Of a stretch of DNA of 60,840 nucleotides, positions 22,934-52,976 are shown piece by piece. This DNA is from an uncultured Mycoplasmatota bacterium (GTDB taxonomy: Bacteria > Bacillota_I > Bacilli_A > RF39 > UBA660), in NCBI GenBank assembly GCA_948434005.1, contig CAOJEH010000008.1, forward strand, positions 1-60,840, in the 5' to 3' direction. Below the pieces are notes generated by a model. The model saw nothing but the letters and a program-made list of their open reading frames with translations, was not told the origin of the DNA and ran no database searches. A program made the translations under genes and the position numbers. Position 1 is the first letter of the stretch, and each line of letters opens with the position of its first letter.

Positions 22934-25078
22934 ATGATGAGTTTGATTGAATATGCAGGAGATGTTAATAAAAGTGTAGATGAAATAAAAGCACTATGTG
23001 ATAAAATAGGTATAGCTTATGAAAATGAAGACTCAACTTTAACTGAAGATGATATTATTTTGCTTGATAACGAAATACAAGATCAAGAAGATTATATAAG
23101 TGATGATGATTCTTCAAGTTACGTAAGCGAAGATGAGTTAGATGATGAAGAGGTAAGTGAAAAAGCTGAGGCTCTTGCACAAGCAGCTAATATCGATTTA
23201 GATAATCAAGAAAGATTTGAAAAAGTTAAAACTAAGGTAGTAAAAAAAGCAGAAGCTAAAAATAATTTTATTAAAGAAAGAAAGAAAATATATAAACATC
23301 GTGAAAAATTACAAAGTAATGAAGCTAAACAAGATGATAATGTTATTTTATATAAAGATGGCATGACTATTGGTGATATAGCAACTTTATTAGATGTTAG
23401 TGGAGTTGAACTAGTAAAGAAAGTTATTGCTTTAGGTATAATGGCAAACGTAAATCAAAGTATTGATTTTGAAACCGCAGAAGTATTAATTAGTGATTAT
23501 GATAAAGTATTAAAAAGAGAAGAAACTAGTGATATTTCAAATTTTGAAAACTTTGAAATAGAAGATAATGAAGAAGATTTAATATCACGTCCTCCAGTTG
23601 TTACGATAATGGGTCATGTAGATCATGGTAAAACAACATTACTTGATACAATAAGAAAAACAAATGTGGTCAGTGGAGAAGCTGGTGGTATTACTCAAGC
23701 AATAGGTGCTTATTCAGTTTTATGTGAAGGAAGAAAAATAACATTTATTGATACACCAGGACATGAAGCATTTACTGAAATGAGAGCTCGTGGTGCAGGG
23801 GTAACAGATGTTGTTATCATTATAGTTGCTGCTGATGATGGTGTTATGCCTCAAACTAGGGAAGCAATTGATCATGCTAAAGCAGCTAAAGTTCCTATTA
23901 TAGTTGCTATTAATAAAATAGATAAAGAAGATGCTAATCCTGATCGTATAATGACTGAATTAGTAGAAAATGGATTAACTCCTGAAGAATGGGGTGGAGA
24001 TACTGTAGTTTGTAAAATTTCTGCAAAATCTGGTCTAGGTATAGATGAATTATTATCAAATATTTTATTAGTTTCTGATATGCAAGAATTAAAAGCAAAT
24101 CCTAATCGTTATGCTAGTGGAACGGTTATTGAATCTCGTAAAGATAAACAAATTGGTTCAGTTGTATCATTATTAATTCAAAATGGAACTTTAAGATTAG
24201 GTGATCCAATAGTAGTTGGAACATGTTATGGTAAAGTAAGAACTCTTAAAAATGATTTAGGAAAGAACTTAGTAGAAGCACCACCTTCAACTCCAGTAGA
24301 AATAACAGGTATTTCTGATGTGCCTTCAGCAGGAGATAGATTTATGGCTTTTGAAACAGAAAAACAAGCTAAATCAATTGCAGAAGAAAGAGCTATCAGA
24401 GCTAAAGAGGAAGATACTAATAAAAGTGGAATGACACTAGAGGATTTATTTGGACAAATTCAAGAAGGGGTTAAAGAAATAAATGTTATAATTAAAGCAG
24501 ATGTTAATGGTAGTAGTGAAGCTATAAAAGGTTCTTTAGAAAAAATAGATATTGAGGGTGCAAAAATAAATATTGTTAGAAGTAGTGTTGGTGCAATAAC
24601 TGAAAGTGATGTAGTACTTGCATCAGCTTCAAAAGCAATAATTATTGGATTTAATGTTCGTGCAAATGCAAAGACATCTGATATTGCTAAAGAGTATGGC
24701 ATCGAAATTAGAAATTACGATATTATTTATAAAGTAGTAGAAGATATGGAAGCAGCAATGAAGGGAATGTTAGATCCTGAATATGAAGAAAATGTTATAG
24801 GTACTGTAGAAATTAGACAAATATTTAAATTTTCTAAAGTTGGTTTAATTGCAGGTTGTCATGTTCTAACAGGTAATGTAAAAAATAATTCTAATGCTAG
24901 AATAATACGTGATGGTACAGTTATTTATAATGGTAAGGTTAAAACATTACAACGTGAAAAAGATCAAGTTAAAGAAGTTAGCAAAGATATGGATTGTGGT
25001 ATAACCTTAGAAAACTGTCAAGATTATAAAGAAAAAGATATTATTGAAGTTTATGAATTAGTCGAGATAAAGAGATAA
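22934..25078 (+). CDS. infB: Translation initiation factor IF-2
   Basis: A 714-residue GTPase that brings initiator tRNA to the ribosome. An N-terminal IF2_N-type helical domain (about 1-35) and an acidic, Lys-rich linker lead to a second IF2_N domain (about 140-195). The GTPase begins near residue 220: GHVDHGKTT (G1), DTPGHE (G3) and NKID (G4). The C-terminal beta-barrel and fMet-tRNA binding domains complete the protein. Total length is at the short end for Bacillota. The ribosome binding site is GAGGTGATT; two ATG codons are adjacent (22934 and 22937). Confidence 0.97.
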
Positions 25079-25110
25079 AAAAATAGGTACTAGTTTTTAG
25101 TACCTATTTT
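25079..25110. terminator. Bidirectional terminator after infB and the poly-HTH gene
   Basis: AAAAATAGGTACTA pairs with TAGTACCTATTTT, loop GTTTT. The A-tract and T-tract make it work on both strands. The stop codon of the minus-strand gene lies inside it. Confidence 0.85.
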
Positions 25111-28100
25111 CTTTTGTGCGTTTTTGTTAGTAAGTTTATTTCTAGTTGTTCTAAGACATTCCTTTGTTAATTTTGAAACTTCTTCTTGCTCAGTCATAAA
25201 GAAGATTGATATAGATTCTGTTGAAAATTCCATATTATTGAAAAATCCTAGTTTTAGTGCAAGCATTGCTTTTTGCTCTACTGTACAAAGTGAAGCATAA
25301 TCTCCATATACTGATTTTTCTAACTTTGAAATACCTTTTATTAAATTATCTCTACTATTTCTTTTTGTATTTGGTATATCATAGTTTCTAGAATTTCTTC
25401 TTATATTATTAAGTTCTTCTTGTGATATAGAAATACTATTTGTTTTACTGTGATTAGCAGCAATTTCACTTTCTTCTCTGAAATGAGGATAATCATTTTG
25501 AAGATTTGGATTATTACTTATTTTAGTAACTGTATTATTTTTTAATATATTGAAATAGTTGTTTGATATATCTAAATGTCTAGCATAACTAGTTACTTTT
25601 TGAAATACTCTAGTCTCATCTGTTAATAGCATATTGGCTAAATCTTTTTCTTTTTTTGTTAATTCAGTACTTTCACTATTTCTTTCCGTTATATCTTCAT
25701 CTAAAGTAGGATATTTTTCTAATATTTTAGCTTTATATTCTTCATTTTCTAATCTTATTAAGATATTTCTTTTAGTCTGCCATATAGAATTCGTTTTTAT
25801 GTTTAATAGATCAGCAATTTCTTCATTAGAAAGGTAGTTACCATCTGGTTGTTTTTTATACAAATATTCTAATGTTTCAACATCTTTATCTATTCTTTCT
25901 GAAATATTTTTAGGTTTAGGATTATTTCTAGAACTAGGCCTTTTTTTGATATCTTCCTCTAGAGTGGGCCATTTTTTTAATACTTTTTCTTTAAGCTCTT
26001 TATCTTCCAGCTTTTTTAATGTATTGCTTTGTTTAGTATATACGCTATTTTCTTTTATTTCTAGTAATTCGGCTATTTCTGAATATTCATAATATGTATC
26101 ATCTGGTCTTTTTTTGAAGAAAAGCTCTAGGATTTCAATAAAACTAGTAAGTTCATATTCTTCTTTTGCTGCAATATCTTCATCTAGAGTAGGGTATTTT
26201 TCTAATATTTTAGTTTTATATTCTTCATTTTCTAATCTTTTGAAGATATTTTTTCTTGCTTGCCATATAGAAGTTGTCTTTATATCTAGTAATTCAGCAA
26301 TTTTTTCATTAGAAAGATAGTTACCATTAGGTTGTTTTTTATACAAATATTCTAATGTTTCAACATCTTTATCTATTTTCTTAGAAATATCTCTAGGTTT
26401 AGGTTTATTTCTAAAACTAGTTCTTTTTTCAATATCTTCCTCTAGAGTAGGCCATTTTTTTAATACTTTTTCTTTAAGAGCTTTATCTTCCAGCTTTTTT
26501 AATGTATTGCTTTGTTTAGTATATACGCTATTTTCTTTTATTCCTAGCAATTCTGCTATTTCTGAATATTCATAATATGTACCATTTGGCCTTTTTTTAA
26601 AGAAGTATTCTAAAGTTTTTATAAGATTACTTAGTTTTTCTTCTTCTTTAGCTTCTTTTTCCTTCTTTCTCATTTCTTCTTTAGCTTTTTTTTCATTGTC
26701 TTTGTAGGTAAGATACATATTAATATTATATTCTAGTAAAGGGTATTCTTTTATGATTGCATTTTTATATTCAGAATTATTATCTAATTCTTTTAAAATC
26801 CTTTCTTTGTTTCTACCAAAAGTATTTATACTTACTCCTAATTCATTTACAATTTCAGTTCCCAAACGATACTTATTACTACTATTTTTAGTATACATTA
26901 GTCTTAAATATTTAACATCTTTGGCAATAACTTTAGGGCTTACTCCACCATGTTTTTGTTCATCAGGAGCTTTGTTATAGACTTCAATATTTTTATATAA
27001 TTCTGGGTATTGGTTTAATATTTGGGTTCTATATTTTTTGTTTTTATTCATTTGATTAAGGATCTTATCTCTTTTTTTAATAACTTGGTATGTTTTCATT
27101 TCCATAAGTTCTGCAATTATGGCTTCATCATAGTATTTACCATTGTGTAGTTTATAAAAGTATTTTAATAATTCAACATCTTGTTTTATTTTTTTTGATA
27201 GTTCTGGTTCTTTTTTTCTTCTTGCTTGCTTTTTTCCTCTGTTTGAAGTTTGTTTATATTCTTCTTTGTCTTCTAGTAAAGTAGGGTATCTTTCTATAAC
27301 TTTTCTTCTAAAATCTAAATCTTCTTCCAATTGTTTTTCTAACACTTTTTTTCTAGAATAAAGTGTACTTTTTTTATTATATCCCAATTTCATCATAACT
27401 TTTTGTACACTTATATATTTGCCGTCTTTATCTTTTTCATATAATGTTTGGAAAAAATTAGCACATTCATATACAGGATTTCCATTAGTTGTAACTATTA
27501 TAGGAATTTTTGCGCCTATTGATCTTCCTTTGAATTTTAGCATAAGATTAATTTGTGGAAACTTTTCCTTTAATGTTTTATAATTTTCTTCATTTTCAAG
27601 AAGGTCATATAAATCTATTATTCTTTCTTTCATTTTCTCAGTAGTTATGCCTCTTTCGTTAGCAAGATCTTCTATATCTATACATATATCATTTATTTGT
27701 CCTGTGAATTGGCCTAATATTTTTAAATCCTCATCAGTAAGTTTAATATTTTTACCTTGTGTTTTTTTCTTTCGTGTTGGTTTCATTTTCTTGTGTTCTA
27801 TTATGATATGCGTAATATTTCCAAATATTTTTTCAATATCTTTAGGGTGTTCTGAAAATTCTGTTTTTAATTTATATACTGTTGATGATACAGTACTAAT
27901 TTCTGTATTTAAAGCTTTTGCTATCTCTTCAGTTGATCTATACTGTCCTTTTTCATTTTTTTCTAGATATAATTCAAGTATCGCCATTTCGGTGTCATAG
28001 AAGATATCATTCTTAGGGTATTTACTTTCTTGTTTTAAATTACCTTTTATATAATTTATTGCATAGTTAGCAAATAAGTGTGGCATATCATTATATGAAT

Positions 28101-28248
28101 CTATAGATTCTAAAATCATATTTCTAATAATTTCTTCAGGGCAATCTATATTAATCCTTTTTAAATCTCCCTTTAATTTGTTTATAAAAAAATTTAATCT
28201 CCTTTCATTATTTTTTACATTGTCTTTAAATTGCTCTATACTTTCCAT
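25090..28248 (-). CDS. Giant tandem helix-turn-helix protein, sigma-factor-like, undescribed
   Basis: A 1052-residue, Lys/Glu-rich soluble protein. It contains about nine copies of a roughly 65-residue module: D-hydrophobic-x-x-LE-x-x-Y/F-KK...G-x-Y-x-x-x-EIAELL-x-IK-x-x-SV/I...ILK-x-LE....K-hydrophobic-LEKYPTLxEDI. Approximate positions are 84-145, 169-232 (weakest), 260-326, 355-420, 442-510, 541-606, 625-692, 702-767 and 786-853. The EIAxLL-x-I-x-x-x-S-V core is the helix-turn-helix of sigma-70 region 4. Residues 975-1040 (TVEQKAMLALKLG..) look like one more, closer to true region 4. LFANYAINYIKGNLKQ (58-73) recalls region 2 (FSTYAVPMILGE in SigG). ATAAGGAGGG precedes the ATG. DNA binding at tandem sites is inference; no catalytic motif is seen. 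Confidence 0.7.
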   Translation of the reverse strand: MESIEQFKDNVKNNERRLNFFINKLKGDLKRINIDCPEEIIRNMILESIDSYNDMPHLFANYAINYIKGNLKQESKYPKNDIFYDTEMAILELYLEKNEKGQYRSTEEIAKALNTEISTVSSTVYKLKTEFSEHPKDIEKIFGNITHIIIEHKKMKPTRKKKTQGKNIKLTDEDLKILGQFTGQINDICIDIEDLANERGITTEKMKERIIDLYDLLENEENYKTLKEKFPQINLMLKFKGRSIGAKIPIIVTTNGNPVYECANFFQTLYEKDKDGKYISVQKVMMKLGYNKKSTLYSRKKVLEKQLEEDLDFRRKVIERYPTLLEDKEEYKQTSNRGKKQARRKKEPELSKKIKQDVELLKYFYKLHNGKYYDEAIIAELMEMKTYQVIKKRDKILNQMNKNKKYRTQILNQYPELYKNIEVYNKAPDEQKHGGVSPKVIAKDVKYLRLMYTKNSSNKYRLGTEIVNELGVSINTFGRNKERILKELDNNSEYKNAIIKEYPLLEYNINMYLTYKDNEKKAKEEMRKKEKEAKEEEKLSNLIKTLEYFFKKRPNGTYYEYSEIAELLGIKENSVYTKQSNTLKKLEDKALKEKVLKKWPTLEEDIEKRTSFRNKPKPRDISKKIDKDVETLEYLYKKQPNGNYLSNEKIAELLDIKTTSIWQARKNIFKRLENEEYKTKILEKYPTLDEDIAAKEEYELTSFIEILELFFKKRPDDTYYEYSEIAELLEIKENSVYTKQSNTLKKLEDKELKEKVLKKWPTLEEDIKKRPSSRNNPKPKNISERIDKDVETLEYLYKKQPDGNYLSNEEIADLLNIKTNSIWQTKRNILIRLENEEYKAKILEKYPTLDEDITERNSESTELTKKEKDLANMLLTDETRVFQKVTSYARHLDISNNYFNILKNNTVTKISNNPNLQNDYPHFREESEIAANHSKTNSISISQEELNNIRRNSRNYDIPNTKRNSRDNLIKGISKLEKSVYGDYASLCTVEQKAMLALKLGFFNNMEFSTESISIFFMTEQEEVSKLTKECLRTTRNKLTNKNAQKKIGTKN
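25681..26145 (-). repeat. Internal duplication, copy B (two HTH modules)
   Basis: Encodes about residues 702-856 of the giant HTH protein. It is nearly identical in protein and highly similar in DNA to 26167-26628, with a period of 161 codons. This is a recent in-frame duplication of a two-module unit. Confidence 0.85.
26167..26628 (-). repeat. Internal duplication, copy A (two HTH modules)
   Basis: Encodes about residues 541-694 of the giant HTH protein. Blocks such as YEYSEIAELL, ENSVYTKQSNTLKKLEDK and LEKYPTLDEDI recur unchanged in copy B. Confidence 0.85.
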
Positions 28249-28305
28249 AGTAAACCCTCCTTATAATTATTATATATTAATTTTATTTATTTTTAAATCT
28301 TTTTT

Positions 28306-28337: not shown

Positions 28338-28685
28338 ATGGCAAATATTAAAATAGAAAGATTGAACCATACATTTATGGAAGAAATTAGCAATATATTA
28401 ATGACTGAAATAAAAGATGAAGATATTAAGTTTGTAACTATAACAGGAGTAGATACTACTAGTGATTTAAGTTTTGCTAAAGTATATTTCACAGTTCTTG
28501 ATGAAGATAAAAAATTATCTACTACTGAAGCTTTAAATGGTGCTAGTCACTTTATAAGAGGAAAGTTAAGCGAAAGAGTAGAAATAAGACATACGCCAGA
28601 GTTAAAATTTATATATGATGAATCTATCTCTTATGGTGAACATATAGAGGATATTATAGAAAAAATTAACGAAAAAAAAGACTAA
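28338..28685 (+). CDS. rbfA: 30S ribosome-binding factor RbfA
   Basis: A 115-residue KH-like protein for 16S rRNA 5'-end maturation and cold adaptation. I start at ATG 28338 (MANIKIERLNH) because GAAGGGATTGA lies upstream; the longer frame would run through the promoter. Family blocks include INHTF..EISNILM, VTITGVDTTSDLSFAKVYFT and RHTPELKFIYDES. It is usually directly downstream of infB; here the minus-strand giant HTH gene separates them. Confidence 0.93.
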   Translation: MANIKIERLNHTFMEEISNILMTEIKDEDIKFVTITGVDTTSDLSFAKVYFTVLDEDKKLSTTEALNGASHFIRGKLSERVEIRHTPELKFIYDESISYGEHIEDIIEKINEKKD

Positions 28686-40497: not shown

Positions 40498-43400
40498 ATG
40501 CATAAATATGTAAAAAAGTTTTTACTAAATTGTTCCTATATTAATGACTATTATAATCATTTAGTTGATAAAACAAAAAAACTACAATATGTAGGTATAA
40601 CTAATGAATGGATAATAGATAATTATTACTTAATTGTAGAGTATAAAAAAAATGTATATGAAAATAAAAAAGGAATTAGTAAAAAACTATCTAAATGTGA
40701 TGATATTTATGCAGTAATTAAAGATATAGTAGAAAGTAATGAATATAATCTTAATTATAAATTATTAATAAAAGATATAAATATATATCAAAAAAAAGAA
40801 AATACATATTTTTCTTATAAAGAAATTTCTTCGATTTCAGAAATACTATTATTTATATATATATCCAAACTATATGAAATATGTAAGGAATCACATAAAG
40901 AATTAATTGCTAAAGAAGAAATAGAAAATATACTAAGTAATATATCTGATAATACAAATATTGATGTTTTTACTAATAATAAAATAGATATCGTAAATGA
41001 TAGTAACTATATTTTTGAAATTAATAATCAATTGAAAAAAATAGGTGTTAAAACTAATATATTATTTAAAGAATATAATTTATTATTAGAAAAAAATAAT
41101 ATTAGTTTAAGAGATATTTTAAGTGATGAATATCAAAAAAGAGCAGATTCTAATTTATTAATTGCTAATATATTTAATAATATTAAAGAGATTGTTGAAT
41201 ATGATTTGGAAGATTTATTTAAATCTATTAGTAAATGTGAAAAATATTTAATAGAAGATAAAGTATATTATAATATGACTCCTGAAACGAAGTTTTTGTA
41301 TAGAGAAAGAGTAGTTAAACTTGCTCGTAAAAATAAAACGAATGAAATAGATTATATAGAAAATCTATTGAAATCTTTTGATATTTCAGAAGAACATATA
41401 GGATATAAATTATTTAATGATAAACTATATAACAATAGAGTTGTTATATATATAGTATCTATTTTGATATTAAGTTTTATAGTTACTTGGTTTTTATCTA
41501 AATATTTTATTGAATCTAGCATACTTGGTTTTTTAATACTAATTATTCCAATAAGCCAATTAATTATTCAAATTGTTAATCAAATAGCTAGTTATTTTGT
41601 AAAGATTAAACCTTTACCAAAAATGGATTATTCGAAAAAGATACCAGAAGAGTCTACATCTATGATAGTCATACCTACAATAATTAGTGATACTCTAAAA
41701 GTAGAGAAAATGTTTGAAAGATTAGAAACATTTTATATTATAAATAAAAGTGAAAATTTATATTTTACTTTACTTGGTGATATAAAAGCTAGTGATAAAA
41801 AGTTTTTGCCTATAGATAATGAAATTATGAAATATGGTGTTTCGTGTGCAGAAAAACTTAATAAAAAGTATAAAAAGGATATATTTCATTTTGTATATAG
41901 AAAAAGAGTTTGGAATGAATGTGAAAATACATATTTAGGATATGAGAGAAAAAGAGGAGCTTTGCTTCAATTTAATAGATTACTTTTAGGGAAACTTACA
42001 AAAAAAGAGGAAGATAAATACTTTAATGTCCATACATTTAAAAACTTTGATAAGAAAATTAAGTATGTTATACCAGTAGATACTGATACTGAATTAGTTT
42101 TAAATTCCTTACTTAATTTAATAGGTTGTATGGCACATCCTTTAAATAAACCTGTTTTAAATAAAGAAAAAACTAAAGTTATTAGTGGTTATGGGATAAT
42201 GCAACCAAGAATGAATATAGATATAGAGTCTACTAATACATCTTTATATTCTCAGGTTTTTGCAGGTATTGGTGGCTTTGACACATATAGTGTTTTAGTT
42301 CCTAATATTTATTCCGATTTATTTCATGAAGGAAGTTTTGCTGGAAAAGGTATCTATGATCTAGAAGTTTTTGATGAAGTTTTATATAATAGATTTCCTG
42401 ATAACTTGATTTTATCTCATGACTTATTAGAAGGAAATTATTTAAGATGTGGTTATGTATCAGATGTAGAATTTATTGAAGACTTTCCATCAAAATTTTT
42501 AGTTGATACTTCTAGACAACATAGATGGGCTAGAGGTGATACTCAAATAATAGGTTATTTATTAAAATATGTAAAGAATAAAAATGAGAATAAAGAATTA
42601 AATCAAGTAAATATACTAGGAAAATGGAAAATATTTGATAATATAGCTAGATTATTCTTATATCCATCATTGCTTTTATTAGTTATATGTACATTATTTT
42701 TTACTCAATATAAAATTTGGTATTTAGTCCTTTTATATTTAGTTATATCATTTCCAATAATATCTTTTTTAAAAAATAAATTCTATGTAAAAAATGATGA
42801 TAGAACTACGATATATTATTCAAATTTAACTTTTGGTGGGAAATCACTTTTAATAAGAAGTCTTATCGTATTTTCTACTATACCATATTATTCATATCTA
42901 TATATGGATGCCTTTTTTAAATCTATTTATAGGATGTTTGTCTCTCATAAAAACTTATTAAATTGGATAACTGCTGAAGAGATGGAAAAAAAATCTGTAT
43001 TTAGTTTATTTAAATATATTTCTAATTTTAAGTTTAATATATTTATAGGATTATGTCTTTTAACACTTGGTATTATTTATAATAATTATTACGCTATTAC
43101 AGTAGGAGTTATCTTTTTATTAGCGCCTTTATATATTTACTATGTTAGTATGGATCTAAATTATACTCCTAGTAGACTAGATAGTATAAAACATAAAAAT
43201 ATAATTGATATTGCTAGAAGAACTTGGATTTATTTTAAGGATAATTTAACAGAAGAAAATAATTATTTAGTATCAGATAATTATCAAGAAAATAGAGATA
43301 TAAAGATGGATTATAGAACATCTTCAACAGATATTAGTTATTCATTAACTAGTGTTATATGTGCTTATGAATTAAAGTTTATTGATATAGATGAGGCAGT

Positions 43401-46400
43401 ATTTTATTTAGATAAGATAATTAATACAATAGATTCTTTAGAAAAATGGAATGGACATTTATATAATTGGTATGATATAAAAACTAAAGCTGTACTTAAT
43501 CCAAAGTTTGTATCAACAATTGATTCAGGTAATTTAATCGCATCTTTAATAGTCGTTAGAGAATTTTTAATGAAATATGAACAAGAGAAGTTAGTAAAAC
43601 TATGTGATAAATTAATTAAAGAGACTAATTTTAAAAAATTATATACTAAAAAAGATGTGTTTAGTATTGGGTATTCAGAAGAAGATCATGCTTTATCTAT
43701 ATATAACTATAATAAATTTGCTAGTGAATCTAGACTTACTAGTTTTGTTGCTATATGTAAAGGAGATGTCTCAAGTAAACATTGGTTTTGCCTTGACAAG
43801 TCATTAACTACATATAAAAAACGTAAAGGTTTAATTTCTTGGAGTGGGACTGCTTTTGAATACTTTATGCCATTTTTATATATGAAAAATTATAAAAATA
43901 CTTTACTTGATGAATCTTATAATTTTGCTTATTTCTGTCAAAAAAATTATATTGAATCAGTTAGTAAAAGACTTCCATGGGGTATAAGTGAATCTGCCTA
44001 TAATGAACTTGATGATTCTCAAAATTATAAATATAGTAGTTTTTCTGTACCAATACTTAAAGCAAAAGAGGATAAGAATAATAGAATAGTTATCTCTCCA
44101 TATTCATCATTAATGGTAATGTCACTATATCCAGAAGATGTATATGAAAATATTTTAAAATTTAGGCAATTAAATATGCTTTCTAAATATGGATTTTATG
44201 AGTCTTATGATTATGATACAAGAAATGTAGTAAGATCATGTTTTGCTCATCATCAAGGTATGAGTTTGATAGGACTTACTAATTATTTAAAGAATGATGT
44301 GATAAAAGAATACTTTCATTCTAATGTTAAAGTAAGAACATTTGATATTTTATTAAAAGAGAAAGTACAGGTAAAAGCAGATATAGATATGAAGATTGCT
44401 AAATATAAAAAGTATAATTATAAAAAAGAAGTTATACATAATGATATCAGAGCTTATAGTTATATATCAGATATGCCTGAAGTTAGTGCTTTATCTAATA
44501 AAAAATATACTTTACTTATGAATGATAGAGGTAATAGTTTTTCTAGATATAGGACATTGCAACTTAATAGATATCGTAAAATAACAGAGCAAGATTATGG
44601 TATGTTTTTATATATTAAAGATATTGCTACTAATAAGGTTTGGTCTAATACTTATGCTCCAATTAATCAAAAACCTGATAAATACGAAGTTGTTTTTGCA
44701 TCAGATAAAATTAAGTATTTAAGAACTGATGGATATATAACTACTAAAACTGAAGTTATTGTAACAAGAGATTATCATGCTGAAATTAGAAAGTATACTT
44801 TTACTAATGATAGTGATGATTTTAAAGTATTAGAACTAACTACTTATACAGAACCAATACTTTGTGATAATACTGCAGATGTTGCTCATAAAGTATTTAA
44901 CAATATGTTTTTAGAAAGTACTTATGATGATAAAACAAACTCACTTATAATGATGAGAAAAAATAGAGAAATAGGTACTAAAACGTATATGGTAAATAGA
45001 TTATTAATAGAAAATCCAGTAGATAAATATACTTATGAGACTGATAGATTTAATTTTATTGGTAGAGGTCATACTGCAACTAATCCAATTGCTATAGACT
45101 CATATCTTTCTAATACTATAGGTACTTCTCTAGAACCTGTTATGAGTATTAGAAATAAAATAGAAATTGCACCTAATAGTTCAAAGACAGTATACTTCAT
45201 TTGTGGTTTTGGAAGAAGTATGGAACAAATAAAAGATATTGTAAATACATATGATAACGCATTATCTATAAAAAAGGCTTTTCAAATATCTAATACTATG
45301 AATATTGTTCAAACTAAGAATATGAATTTAACTGGTGAAGAGATGCGTATTTTTAATATCATGCTTAATTATTTATATCAAACTACAAAAATAGCAGTTA
45401 ATAATGAACGTAGAGAATATTTAAGATGCAATGCCCTAGCGCAAAATGGTCTATGGAGATTTGGTATTAGTGGTGATAGACCAATTATTCTAGTAAATAT
45501 AGGAGATGTTTTAGATTTATCTTTTGCATATGAGATATTAAAAGCATTTGAATATTTTAAAAATAAATCAATCTTTGTAGATATTATTATTGTTAATAGT
45601 GAACAAGGTGAAGCTAAGGAAATTGTTAAAAGAGAAATTAATAATGAGTTATACCGAATATATAGTATTAATAGTTTTAGAAATACACCAGGTGTTGTTA
45701 CTATAGTAGATAATTCAAAAATAAATGAAAAGGAAAAGTCCCTTTTAAGAATAGTTCCCAGATTAATGTTTAATGTAGTAGATCATCACTCTTTAAAAGA
45801 TGAAATAGAATTATTACAAAAAAATAATAAAGTAAATGATTATAAATTGTTAGAAATAGAAGAAAATATTACTAAAAAATATACTAATAGATTAAAGTTT
45901 AATAATGACTTTGGAGGTTTTAGCTCTAACGGTCATGAATACATTATTACTAATATGAATACACCTACACCGTGGAGTAATGTTATTTCTAATGGTAACT
46001 TTGGAACAATTATAACTAATAATGGTTGTGGTTATACATATGCTTATAACAGTTTAGAATATAAAATAACATCGTGGACTAATGAAATGATTATAAATGA
46101 TAAATCTGAAGGTATTAAAGTTGATGGTAAATTATTTGAACCTACAAAATGTACTCATGGATTTGGTTATTCTATTTTAGAAAGTGAAACTAAAACTTTG
46201 AAGCATTCTTTAACTGAGTTTATTGCTAAAGATGATAATGTAAAAATTTATATATTAAAATTAACTAATAAAGAAAAAGAAAAAAAGAATCTAAATATTT
46301 CATTTTTTATAAATCCAACTTTTGGTAATTATGAAGAAAAAACATCTAGACATATTTTAACTGAATTTATGGGTGATGATAATTATTTAAAATTAAGAAA

Positions 46401-48162
46401 TGTTTACAGTATTGATTATAGTGATGTAAATGTATTTATGTCATCATCAGAAAAAATAGATACTGCAACAATAGATAGAATATTAGTTAAAGATATTAAT
46501 ATAAATATTTCACTAGATTCTAAAGAAGACAAAGAAATTGTATTTACTTTAGGATGCAGTAAGAGTGAAGATAAAAATCTATTATTAATTAATAAATATA
46601 ATAATTTAGATACTGCAAAAAAAGAATTAAAACTAGTTAAGGATTCTTGGACTGACAAATTATCAACTATTCAGGTAAATACGCCAGATGACTCTTTTAA
46701 CTATATGATAAATGGTTGGTATCTATATCAAACTATTTCATCAAGAATGGATGCTAAAGCGGGATTTTATCAAGTTAGTGGAGCGTTTGGATATCGTGAC
46801 CAGTTACAAGATGCTATGAATATATGTATGGTTAATCCTTTATATACAAGAAATCAAATTTTAACAAATGCAAAACATCAATTTATAGAGGGAGATGTAC
46901 TACATTGGTGGCATGAAAAAAATAGATTTGGACTTCGTAGTAGATATAAAGATGATTATTTGTGGTTAGTTTATGCAACTATTTATTATTTAGAGATAAC
47001 GGGTGATAGTTCTATTTTAGAAGAAGAGGTAGAATTTGTAGTTGCTGATGTTTTAGCAGATCATGAAAATGAAAGAGGAGTTATCTTTACATACAGTTCT
47101 TATAAAAAGACTTTATTTGAACATTTACTTTTATCTTTAAAATTATCAATGTCATCACTTGGTTCACATGGTCTACCACTAATGGGTGGAGGAGACTGGA
47201 ATGATGGTATGAATAAAGTTGGTATTAAAGGTAAAGGAGAAAGTGTATGGTTAGGATTCTTCTTATATGATATTATAACTAACTTTATAAAGATTTTAGA
47301 TAAGTATTATCCTGATATTAAAAAAGATTCATATGAAAAGTTTAATAAAAAGTTAAAAGATAATTTAAATAAAAATGCTTGGGATAAAGACTATTATTTA
47401 AGAGCTTTCTTTGATAATGGTGATAAGCTAGGTAGTAGTGAAAATGATGAATGTAAGATAGATTTAATTTCACAAAGTTTTTCTATACTTAGTGATGTTA
47501 TTGAAAAGAGTAGGATATCTAGTGTAATTAATTCTGTTGAAGAAAGATTAGTTAATAAAGAAAGTAAAATTATAAAACTTCTTGATCCTCCATTTGAAAA
47601 ATCTTTAAATAATCCAGGCTATATTATGAGTTATCCAAAAGGTATTCGTGAAAATGGTGGACAATATACTCATGCAACAGCTTGGTATATAATGGCACTA
47701 ATAAAATGTGGCTATGTTGATAGAGCTTATAAATATTATCAAATGATAAATCCAATTAATCGAAGTTTAGATAAAGAAAGTGTTAATAAATATAAAGTTG
47801 AACCTTATGTAATTGCTGCTGATATATATTCAAAACAAGGATATGAAGGAAGAGGTGGTTGGACTTGGTATACTGGTTCTGCTGGATGGTTTTATAGGGT
47901 AGGTATAGAACAAATTATTGGTTTAAAAAGAAGAGGGGATAGATTATATATAGAACCTAATGTTCCTAAAGAGTGGAAAAAGTATGAAATAGTATATAAG
48001 TATCAAGATACTATTTATAATATAAAAGTTATTTTTGGTGATCAAAATAAAATCATTATAGATGGAAAACAAAATAGAAGTCCGAATATAATTAAATTAG
48101 ATAATAAAAAATCATCATATACTATAGAAGTATATAGAAAAAGAGGTAAGGTAAATGATTAA
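40498..48162 (+). CDS. Giant cyclic beta-1,2-glucan synthase-like enzyme (GT84 plus GH94)
   Basis: A 2554-residue membrane enzyme. Order of parts: N-terminal helical region (1-310); membrane helices near 315-365; GT84 glycosyltransferase (about 385-720) with DTDTE near 527 and a QxxRW motif (RQHRW) near 672; more helices (about 730-885); a glycoamylase-like domain with LPWGISESAYNE near 1160; then two glycosyltransferase-36-type sugar-binding and helical-barrel sections. The catalytic GGGDWNDGMN of GH94 phosphorylases is near 2227-2236. This is the architecture of NdvB/Cgs, which polymerises UDP-glucose into cyclic beta-1,2-glucan and trims chain length by phosphorolysis. Product linkage here is inferred. 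The pgi start overlaps its end by 8 bases. Confidence 0.85.
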   Translation: MHKYVKKFLLNCSYINDYYNHLVDKTKKLQYVGITNEWIIDNYYLIVEYKKNVYENKKGISKKLSKCDDIYAVIKDIVESNEYNLNYKLLIKDINIYQKKENTYFSYKEISSISEILLFIYISKLYEICKESHKELIAKEEIENILSNISDNTNIDVFTNNKIDIVNDSNYIFEINNQLKKIGVKTNILFKEYNLLLEKNNISLRDILSDEYQKRADSNLLIANIFNNIKEIVEYDLEDLFKSISKCEKYLIEDKVYYNMTPETKFLYRERVVKLARKNKTNEIDYIENLLKSFDISEEHIGYKLFNDKLYNNRVVIYIVSILILSFIVTWFLSKYFIESSILGFLILIIPISQLIIQIVNQIASYFVKIKPLPKMDYSKKIPEESTSMIVIPTIISDTLKVEKMFERLETFYIINKSENLYFTLLGDIKASDKKFLPIDNEIMKYGVSCAEKLNKKYKKDIFHFVYRKRVWNECENTYLGYERKRGALLQFNRLLLGKLTKKEEDKYFNVHTFKNFDKKIKYVIPVDTDTELVLNSLLNLIGCMAHPLNKPVLNKEKTKVISGYGIMQPRMNIDIESTNTSLYSQVFAGIGGFDTYSVLVPNIYSDLFHEGSFAGKGIYDLEVFDEVLYNRFPDNLILSHDLLEGNYLRCGYVSDVEFIEDFPSKFLVDTSRQHRWARGDTQIIGYLLKYVKNKNENKELNQVNILGKWKIFDNIARLFLYPSLLLLVICTLFFTQYKIWYLVLLYLVISFPIISFLKNKFYVKNDDRTTIYYSNLTFGGKSLLIRSLIVFSTIPYYSYLYMDAFFKSIYRMFVSHKNLLNWITAEEMEKKSVFSLFKYISNFKFNIFIGLCLLTLGIIYNNYYAITVGVIFLLAPLYIYYVSMDLNYTPSRLDSIKHKNIIDIARRTWIYFKDNLTEENNYLVSDNYQENRDIKMDYRTSSTDISYSLTSVICAYELKFIDIDEAVFYLDKIINTIDSLEKWNGHLYNWYDIKTKAVLNPKFVSTIDSGNLIASLIVVREFLMKYEQEKLVKLCDKLIKETNFKKLYTKKDVFSIGYSEEDHALSIYNYNKFASESRLTSFVAICKGDVSSKHWFCLDKSLTTYKKRKGLISWSGTAFEYFMPFLYMKNYKNTLLDESYNFAYFCQKNYIESVSKRLPWGISESAYNELDDSQNYKYSSFSVPILKAKEDKNNRIVISPYSSLMVMSLYPEDVYENILKFRQLNMLSKYGFYESYDYDTRNVVRSCFAHHQGMSLIGLTNYLKNDVIKEYFHSNVKVRTFDILLKEKVQVKADIDMKIAKYKKYNYKKEVIHNDIRAYSYISDMPEVSALSNKKYTLLMNDRGNSFSRYRTLQLNRYRKITEQDYGMFLYIKDIATNKVWSNTYAPINQKPDKYEVVFASDKIKYLRTDGYITTKTEVIVTRDYHAEIRKYTFTNDSDDFKVLELTTYTEPILCDNTADVAHKVFNNMFLESTYDDKTNSLIMMRKNREIGTKTYMVNRLLIENPVDKYTYETDRFNFIGRGHTATNPIAIDSYLSNTIGTSLEPVMSIRNKIEIAPNSSKTVYFICGFGRSMEQIKDIVNTYDNALSIKKAFQISNTMNIVQTKNMNLTGEEMRIFNIMLNYLYQTTKIAVNNERREYLRCNALAQNGLWRFGISGDRPIILVNIGDVLDLSFAYEILKAFEYFKNKSIFVDIIIVNSEQGEAKEIVKREINNELYRIYSINSFRNTPGVVTIVDNSKINEKEKSLLRIVPRLMFNVVDHHSLKDEIELLQKNNKVNDYKLLEIEENITKKYTNRLKFNNDFGGFSSNGHEYIITNMNTPTPWSNVISNGNFGTIITNNGCGYTYAYNSLEYKITSWTNEMIINDKSEGIKVDGKLFEPTKCTHGFGYSILESETKTLKHSLTEFIAKDDNVKIYILKLTNKEKEKKNLNISFFINPTFGNYEEKTSRHILTEFMGDDNYLKLRNVYSIDYSDVNVFMSSSEKIDTATIDRILVKDININISLDSKEDKEIVFTLGCSKSEDKNLLLINKYNNLDTAKKELKLVKDSWTDKLSTIQVNTPDDSFNYMINGWYLYQTISSRMDAKAGFYQVSGAFGYRDQLQDAMNICMVNPLYTRNQILTNAKHQFIEGDVLHWWHEKNRFGLRSRYKDDYLWLVYATIYYLEITGDSSILEEEVEFVVADVLADHENERGVIFTYSSYKKTLFEHLLLSLKLSMSSLGSHGLPLMGGGDWNDGMNKVGIKGKGESVWLGFFLYDIITNFIKILDKYYPDIKKDSYEKFNKKLKDNLNKNAWDKDYYLRAFFDNGDKLGSSENDECKIDLISQSFSILSDVIEKSRISSVINSVEERLVNKESKIIKLLDPPFEKSLNNPGYIMSYPKGIRENGGQYTHATAWYIMALIKCGYVDRAYKYYQMINPINRSLDKESVNKYKVEPYVIAADIYSKQGYEGRGGWTWYTGSAGWFYRVGIEQIIGLKRRGDRLYIEPNVPKEWKKYEIVYKYQDTIYNIKVIFGDQNKIIIDGKQNRSPNIIKLDNKKSSYTIEVYRKRGKVND

Positions 48163-52152: not shown

Positions 52153-52199
52153 AAAAAATCTCGTTTTATATCATAACAAGTATGAAAGGAGATTTTTTT
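52153..52199 (+). terminator. Long-loop terminator-like hairpin covering the sigG ribosome binding site
   Basis: AAAAAATCTC (52153-52162) pairs with GAGATTTTTT (52189-52198) around a 26-base loop that itself contains TCATA/TATGA. The T-tract ends one base before the sigG ATG, and the right arm includes part of AAAGGAG. It could end the upstream transcript and limit sigG translation. Confidence 0.55.
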
Positions 52200-52976
52200 A
52201 TGGCACGCCACAAAGTTGAAATAAGTGGTGTGAATACAGCAAATATTAAAGTACTTAGTAGTAAAGAAATGGTTGAATTATTTAAAAGAATGGAAGAAGG
52301 TGATCCATTTGCTAGAGATGATTTAGTAGAAGGAAATTTAAAGTTGGTTTTATCTATTTTAAAGAGATTTAATAATAAGTGTGATAATATGGATGATTTA
52401 TTTCAAGTTGGATGTGTAGGTCTTTTAAAAGCAATAGATAATTTTGATTTATCACACGGAGTTAGATTTTCTACTTATGCAGTACCTATGATATTAGGAG
52501 AGGTTAGAAGATATTTACGTGATAATAATAGTATCAGAGTTAGCAGGTCTTTAAAAGATATTGCATATAAGACACTTAAATATAAAGAAGAATATATATC
52601 GTTGCATGGAGTTGAGCCACAAATAGAAGATATTGCTAAGGAACTGGGTGTTACTACATTTGATATAGTTAATTCTCTAGATTCTTTGAAAGAACCAATA
52701 AGTATGTTTGAAGCTATATATAATGATGGTGGAGATACGATTTACTTATGTGATCAAATAGAAGATAAAAAAAGTAGTAGTGAAGATATGCAAATAAAAC
52801 TAGCACTAACTGAAGCTATAGATAATTTAAGTGATAGGGAACAACATATCCTAGATCAAAGATTTGTTATTGGAAAGACACAAATGGAGATTGCAGATGA
52901 ACTTTCTATAAGTCAAGCTCAAGTATCTAGAATAGAAAAATCAGCAATAAGTTCTTTGAAGAAAGTGTTAAAATAA
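52200..52976 (+). CDS. sigG: Forespore sigma factor SigG
   Basis: 258 residues from ATG 52200 (MARHKVEISGVNT, the SigG N-terminus), preceded by AAAGGAG; an ATG six codons earlier lies within the ribosome binding site and is rejected. Region 2 includes DDLFQVGCVGLLKAIDNFD and FSTYAVPMILGEVRRYLRD; region 3 follows, and region 4 ends with QMEIADELSISQAQVSRIE. SigG drives late forespore gene expression in spore formers. The length matches Bacillus SigG (260). Neighbouring ylmC/ymxH is as in other spore formers, but spoIIGA-sigE is not upstream. Confidence 0.92.
   Translation: MARHKVEISGVNTANIKVLSSKEMVELFKRMEEGDPFARDDLVEGNLKLVLSILKRFNNKCDNMDDLFQVGCVGLLKAIDNFDLSHGVRFSTYAVPMILGEVRRYLRDNNSIRVSRSLKDIAYKTLKYKEEYISLHGVEPQIEDIAKELGVTTFDIVNSLDSLKEPISMFEAIYNDGGDTIYLCDQIEDKKSSSEDMQIKLALTEAIDNLSDREQHILDQRFVIGKTQMEIADELSISQAQVSRIEKSAISSLKKVLK

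Follow-up and report, generated by a model that had tools for sequence, protein, structure and literature searches.

TALE-like repeats are about 33–35 residues long. A published TALE-inspired screen was limited to repeats of 30–43 residues and so could not have found the protein described here (PMC5472282). PRDM9 and KRAB zinc-finger arrays undergo concerted evolution, vary in module number, and show an excess of change at DNA-contacting residues (PMC6116924), while in sigma-70 factors the residues that read the -35 element (R584, E585 and Q589 of sigma70) are conserved across bacteria (PMC8407463). Here we describe a protein that belongs to the sigma-70 superfamily by descent, and whose tandem modules are sigma4-type helix-turn-helix (HTH) domains. 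It is encoded in a 60,840-nucleotide stretch of DNA (hereafter the window) with a GC content of ~25% from an uncultured rabbit-gut bacterium.

Genome location of the array gene

The array gene (25090–28248, minus strand, ATG at 28248) encodes 1052 residues and is present as a single copy in the 1.45 Mb genome bin. It is situated between infB (22934–25078, plus strand), with which it is convergent, and rbfA (28338–28685, plus strand), from which it is divergent. A promoter-like site, TTTAAA-17-TATAAT (28269–28297, minus strand), and a ribosome-binding site read from the sequence, AAGGAGGG (28255–28262, minus strand), are both kept in four species, with conservation of the -10 in all four, and they overlap the divergent rbfA promoter region. 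A near-perfect, bidirectional terminator-like palindrome (25077–25113) is common to infB and the array gene. No conserved RNA element was found at the locus, the only matches being to tRNAs located elsewhere.

The infB–rbfA slot, otherwise a tight operon junction, is a site of gene turnover, and other species have different small genes there or none. Unrelated genes occupy it in six other genomes (G002, G003, G007, G010, G023 and G029), including ~105-residue open reading frames, peptidase-like and Hsp20-like open reading frames, a NUDIX-like open reading frame, and two small open reading frames. Elsewhere in the window, a gene at 40498–48162 codes for a 2554-residue protein that, from a reading of its sequence, resembles a cyclic-glucan synthase/glycoside phosphorylase-type enzyme, and the contig end (3–116) contains 6.3 copies of an 18-bp tandem repeat with 97% matches.

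Organization of the modules

In the protein an N-terminal body is followed by seven modules, one degenerate module, and a C-terminus resembling sigma4, all encoded on the minus strand. A module HMM built from the window protein and its relatives identifies the seven canonical modules with i-E values from 5e-14 to 2e-29: module 1 (residues 266–338; 27235–27453; i-E 2.7e-14), module 2 (residues 361–431; 26956–27168; 2.1e-23), module 3 (residues 448–519; 26692–26907; 5.4e-14), module 4 (residues 546–616; 26401–26613; 8e-28), module 5 (residues 632–702; 26143–26355; 5.1e-27), module 6 (residues 707–777; 25918–26130; 2.8e-26), and module 7 (residues 793–863; 25660–25872; 1.6e-29). Modules 6 and 7 are recent duplicates of modules 4 and 5 respectively, as reflected in a 483-bp DNA repeat at 25691–26604 (1.9 copies, 89%; Tandem Repeats Finder), which corresponds to a duplicated two-module block. 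The same HMM gives weak matches to degenerate copies at about residues 92 and 881, the latter being a module (residues 881–937; 25438–25608; i-E 0.013) that is conserved in congeners, and a match near residue 185 that is clear in the relatives only. The window protein as a whole has seven clear modules, with a pitch of 75–98 residues, and about three degenerate ones, compatible with the count of about nine in an initial annotation of this DNA, which had also listed the 1052-residue protein at 25090–28248.

That annotation described the modules as resembling sigma region 4, and matches to Pfam Sigma70_r4_2 (E 5e-14 over four stretches, 52.1 bits against a gathering cut-off of 25.7) and Sigma70_r4 (E 7e-8, 32.3 bits against 24.1) agree with this. 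Each module is predicted by AF2 to contain a helix, an HTH and two more helices, forming a five-helix HTH module. Comparison of the module HTHs with the sigma4 fold gives middling Z scores of at most 5.8 (VIA-align), which serve as supporting evidence alongside the other matches. The AF2 models were built on 4–9 sequences, and their inter-module geometry is unreliable (pTM 0.34–0.38). The C-terminal block (residues 960–1040; 25129–25371), in which a closer likeness to sigma region 4 had been noticed initially, does resemble it by sequence comparison; this is the sole support for the assignment, since the C-terminal ~120 residues of the model have a pLDDT below 50.

The N-terminal sigma-like body

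In the AF2 model (mean pLDDT 79), residues 1–250 form four helices and then two HTH regions. Profile and fold comparisons identify degenerate sigma2-like helices at residues 4–75 (28024–28239, minus strand), with LFANYAINYIKGNLKQ at the region 2.3/2.4 position. The first HTH (residues 85–154; 27787–27996, minus strand) is in the sigma3 position by HMM, profile, model, and fold, and the second (residues 168–245; 27514–27747, minus strand) is in the sigma4 position by profile and fold, aligning with sigma4 with a Z score of 7.1 and an rmsd of 1.8 over 53 residues (VIA-align). All of the top 50 PDB matches to residues 1–250 found by Foldseek are sigma factors, with a modest best E of 0.009, and the alignment with whole sigma factors is co-linear (VIA-align Z 6–7) with a large rmsd, as expected given that the domains are flexible. 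A ten-member family profile aligns with SigA residues 164–354 (hhalign E 1.7e-4), and a four-member profile matches SigA-size open reading frames in other genomes (E 0.003–0.008), the one examined being SigA itself. By profile and fold the N-terminal 250 residues are thus co-linear with sigma regions 2-3-4, with support that is moderate, not overwhelming. The suggestions in the initial annotation that the protein is sigma-derived, and that its N-terminal stretch recalls region 2, are both borne out by these profile, HMM and fold comparisons.

The motifs by which sigma2 acts are nonetheless missing. In none of the 14 members does the aligned position carry the region 2.2 core-binding motif (DxxQE type); the single regular-expression match, in G181, was rejected, as its DTYQE sits in the adjacent A[IV]DxY segment rather than at the 2.2 position. 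The -10-reading helix of region 2.3/2.4, FSTYATWWIRQAI, is preserved in none of the 14, and the -10 melting residues YATWWIRQAIT are replaced by NYAINYIKGNL in the window protein and are variable in its relatives. Pfam Sigma70_r2 does not match the window protein.

Among other sigma-related genes of the same genome, one codes for a 264-residue sigma factor within the window (52182–52976) with a strong Sigma70_r2 match, and another (L176, positions 103–1944 of contig G000:C15) codes for a 613-residue protein that has long non-sigma flanks and matches Sigma70_r2 divergently (E 3.8e-8).

Relatives, distribution, and extended sigma factors

Counting modules across homologues, as the initial annotation proposed, gives from 2 to 17 modules in orthologues of 673–1915 residues, distributed among five genera, all within a single uncultured family of Bacilli. 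Four of the nine genomes of the window's genus have the gene (673, 1052, 1804 and 1915 residues), always antisense between infB and rbfA. No copy was detected in the other five congeners, nor in many genera, and the gene is thus dispensable. The remaining orthologues are in four genera, represented by G098, by G203, by G084, G216 and G376, and by G012, G181, G282 and G355 (with the G098 and G282 genes split across contig ends). Nearly all are antisense beside rbfA and/or infB; the G203 orthologue follows immediately downstream of rbfA, and in G355 there are two copies, one adjoining rbfA and the other on a contig that carries infB.

Membership of this infB/rbfA family was restricted to strong matches. 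A profile of the C-terminal block matches 148 of 386 genomes, a number that does not reflect family size because SigA region 4 and the extended sigma factors (see below) cross-match. A class-level search with the N-terminal profile yields no strong match outside the bacterial family and one weak match, in G421, with a broken frame; a match in G018 (E 5e-4) was rejected as a short, unrelated-looking open reading frame of 107 residues. Searches of phages and plasmids by tblastn gave no match, nor did viral contigs with the window protein as query, and a phage or plasmid origin was rejected, as was identity with a defence system, there being no PADLOC profile match. PHROGs returns generic HTH-level matches only, other profile searches give weak generic HTH matches (MarR, BirA) plus sigma4, and no relative of the window protein was found by sequence among solved structures.

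N-domain distances follow those of RbfA (Mantel r 0.66, a value reached in none of 5000 permutations) and both group the genera in the same way, suggesting that descent is mainly vertical with many losses. The array gene evolves much faster than its neighbour, with dN/dS of about 0.4–0.9 against 0.12–0.24 for RbfA; for the N- and C-domains the ratio is about 0.8 in most comparisons and 0.42 in one. Values of about 0.8 are compatible with either conflict (an arms race) or relaxed constraint, although the open reading frames, the invariant module core, and the kept signals argue against simple decay. Between the congeners G001 and G006 (loci L059 and L061, from the same rabbit sample) dS is 0.20–0.22 for the array gene but 0.78 for RbfA, and because the former is so much lower the gene has probably been exchanged recently between them.

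In several genera of this bacterial family there are, in addition, extended sigma factors, in which intact sigma domains are followed by two additional conserved HTH-like blocks (L179 in G119, L177 in G008, L178 in G003, L183 in G120, L184 in G086, and L186 in G412, the last divided between two reading frames or two genes). The Pfam sigma 1.2, 2, 3, and 4 domains are intact in the 716-residue G119 protein (Sigma70_r2 E 1.8e-22), as are sigma2 and sigma4 in the 459-residue G008 protein (Sigma70_r2 E 1.8e-8), and in these two, which were scanned, no Pfam family spans the extension in full. The last HTH-like block matches the C-terminus of the array protein (E ~1e-10 with the C-terminal-block profile). 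The overall tally of extended sigma factors is mixed with SigA cross-matches, and we found no description of such proteins in the literature. They are probably the source lineage of the array protein, and are plausible candidates for intermediates.

Variation among modules within arrays

Modules within the long arrays are homogenised, with most of their differences in the turn and the recognition helix, and in the G001 and G006 arrays columns 35–46 are more variable than any other segment of the same length. Positions equivalent to sigma70 584, 585, 586, 588, and 589 were taken as contact positions, and their mean entropy exceeds that of random columns in G203 (P 4e-5), G098 (P 8e-5), and G001 (P 0.003), and marginally in G006 (P 0.06). 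The same order is seen when only polar columns are used for comparison (P 0.0002, 0.0005, 0.008, and 0.1 respectively). Homogenised modules with an excess of base-contact variation are therefore clear in three of the four arrays and marginal in the fourth, which is the reverse of the behavior of a sigma factor, in which R584, E585, and Q589 are fixed.

Pooled pN/pS ratios, which combine module pairs that are not independent and do not amount to formal tests of selection, are 1.30 in the recognition segment against 0.34 for the rest in G098, and 1.06 against 0.69 in G203. In G001 the recognition segment has a ratio of 1.65, with 0.4–1.2 in the others except for one beta/loop segment at 1.59. 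The modules of the window array are few in number, and between the recent duplicates among them the recognition helix is conserved (pN/pS 0.30, with values of about 0.3 across most segments); as these have not diversified, the diversification signal comes from the relatives. The recognition helix has a net charge of +3.5 to +4.5 in all four congeners and the module tails are acidic, with a protein pI of 8.7–9.6 in most members (7.5 in G216) compared to 5.0 for SigA.

Discussion

On balance we think it moderately probable that an ex-sigma factor has become a modular, sequence-specific DNA-binding protein, evolving in the manner of PRDM9, the KRAB zinc fingers, or TALEs. According to this model a sigma-70-type factor would have lost its promoter-melting and core-binding functions while its -35-reading domain, sigma4, multiplied into a tandem HTH array, giving a product with a degenerate sigma body (residues 1–250), the sigma4-type modules, and the conserved sigma4-like C-terminal block. 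Each module would insert its own recognition helix into a major groove, such that the array could read one long composite sequence or several sites together. Duplication and conversion would homogenise most long arrays as their recognition helices diversify. The most likely role of the protein would be to repress or silence changing targets in a sequence-specific manner, among them rival promoters, phage DNA, or mobile DNA, and it would also repress its own promoter, with which the promoter of rbfA overlaps. We advance more tentatively, as a possibility that we would not yet bet on, a Red-Queen version in which each module reads a different short word, is rapidly shuffled and re-specified through duplication and through selection on the residues in contact with bases, and is directed at changing DNA such as that of mobile elements or phage promoters.

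A different reading of the sigma ancestry is that the protein remains a functional alternative sigma factor, or a co-sigma bound to RNAP, in which the additional sigma4 modules broaden or multiply -35 recognition. The co-linear sigma2-3-4 body fits this, as do the intact extended sigma factors found in this bacterial family, with their two extra HTH blocks and a C-terminal block in common with the array protein. We nonetheless consider it unlikely, since the region 2.2 motif and the -10-reading residues of region 2.3/2.4 are missing in every member, Sigma70_r2 fails to match the window protein, and the -35-reading positions are variable where a sigma factor would have them fixed. The initial annotation had favored an architectural DNA-binding protein; the sigma-derived part of that proposal stands, but a purely architectural role is disfavored by the base-contact variation in the relatives. 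A general architectural or nucleoid protein that bridges or coats DNA with little sequence preference would account for a basic, dispensable protein with many HTHs in which module number varies so widely, but the concentration of variation on predicted base-contact residues in three arrays is not expected if bases go unread, and we regard this explanation too as improbable; diversified sequence-specific reading explains that concentration better.

It is also conceivable, although we give it little credence, that the modules no longer bind DNA, their HTHs having been turned to protein or RNA under relaxed constraint while replication slippage enlarges the array. A dN/dS of about 0.8 in the conserved domains, the patchy distribution, and the absence of a conserved partner protein besides the locus are all in keeping with such a change. 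It accords poorly with the long intact frames and the invariant module core, with a recognition helix that remains basic, with low pN/pS outside the recognition segment of G098 and in most segments of the window duplicates, and with conservation of the promoter and ribosome-binding site.

If, as in the sequence-specific model, the modules read DNA independently, they would join zinc fingers and TALEs as a natural solution to modular DNA recognition, and a recognition code could then be worked out directly, since the sigma4 HTH is among the best understood DNA-reading folds. Such an array would be the first known to us that is built from sigma4 HTHs. Were the Red-Queen version true, these proteins would constitute modular DNA-binding arrays of a new natural class, with no relation to TALEs or zinc fingers. 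Evolution that is both accelerated and focused on the contact residues is suggestive of a genetic conflict in gut bacteria, of a kind that we do not know to have been described, and the model also implies that sigma factors can turn into non-sigma regulators by domain multiplication.

Comparison with known systems

Searches on tandem or additional sigma4 domains and tandem HTH domains, in a literature collection that covers subscription papers in part, yielded nothing relevant, and a mention of 'two sigma4 domains' for TcdR was rejected as a precedent, since the sigma4 domains compared there belong to two proteins and no duplication is involved. Together with the profile searches, this agrees with the initial annotation, which knew of no described family with this layout.

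The closest proteins are the extended sigma factors, which have a C-terminal sigma4-like block and extra HTH blocks as in the array protein, but differ in having an intact sigma2, only two extra blocks, and locations other than infB/rbfA in the loci read. Sigma-70 factors in general (SigA; Pfam Sigma70_r2/r3/r4) are co-linear with the N-terminal 250 residues and provide the type for the modules and C-terminus; the array protein departs from them in lacking the sigma2 core-binding and -10 motifs, in its 2–17 additional modules, and in its variable recognition helices. TALE, RipTAL, BAT/BurrH, and MOrTL proteins (PMC4066763, PMC5472282) are likewise tandem repeats of bacterial origin that differ at specificity positions, but theirs are two-helix repeats of unrelated fold with specificity residues 12/13, whereas the array protein has five-helix HTH modules with a 75–98 residue pitch. 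PRDM9 and KRAB zinc-finger arrays (PMC6116924) resemble it in their tandem modules, homogenisation, copy-number variation, and contact-focused change; they are eukaryotic C2H2 proteins of unrelated fold whose function is demonstrated, whereas that of the array protein is predicted from its sequence.
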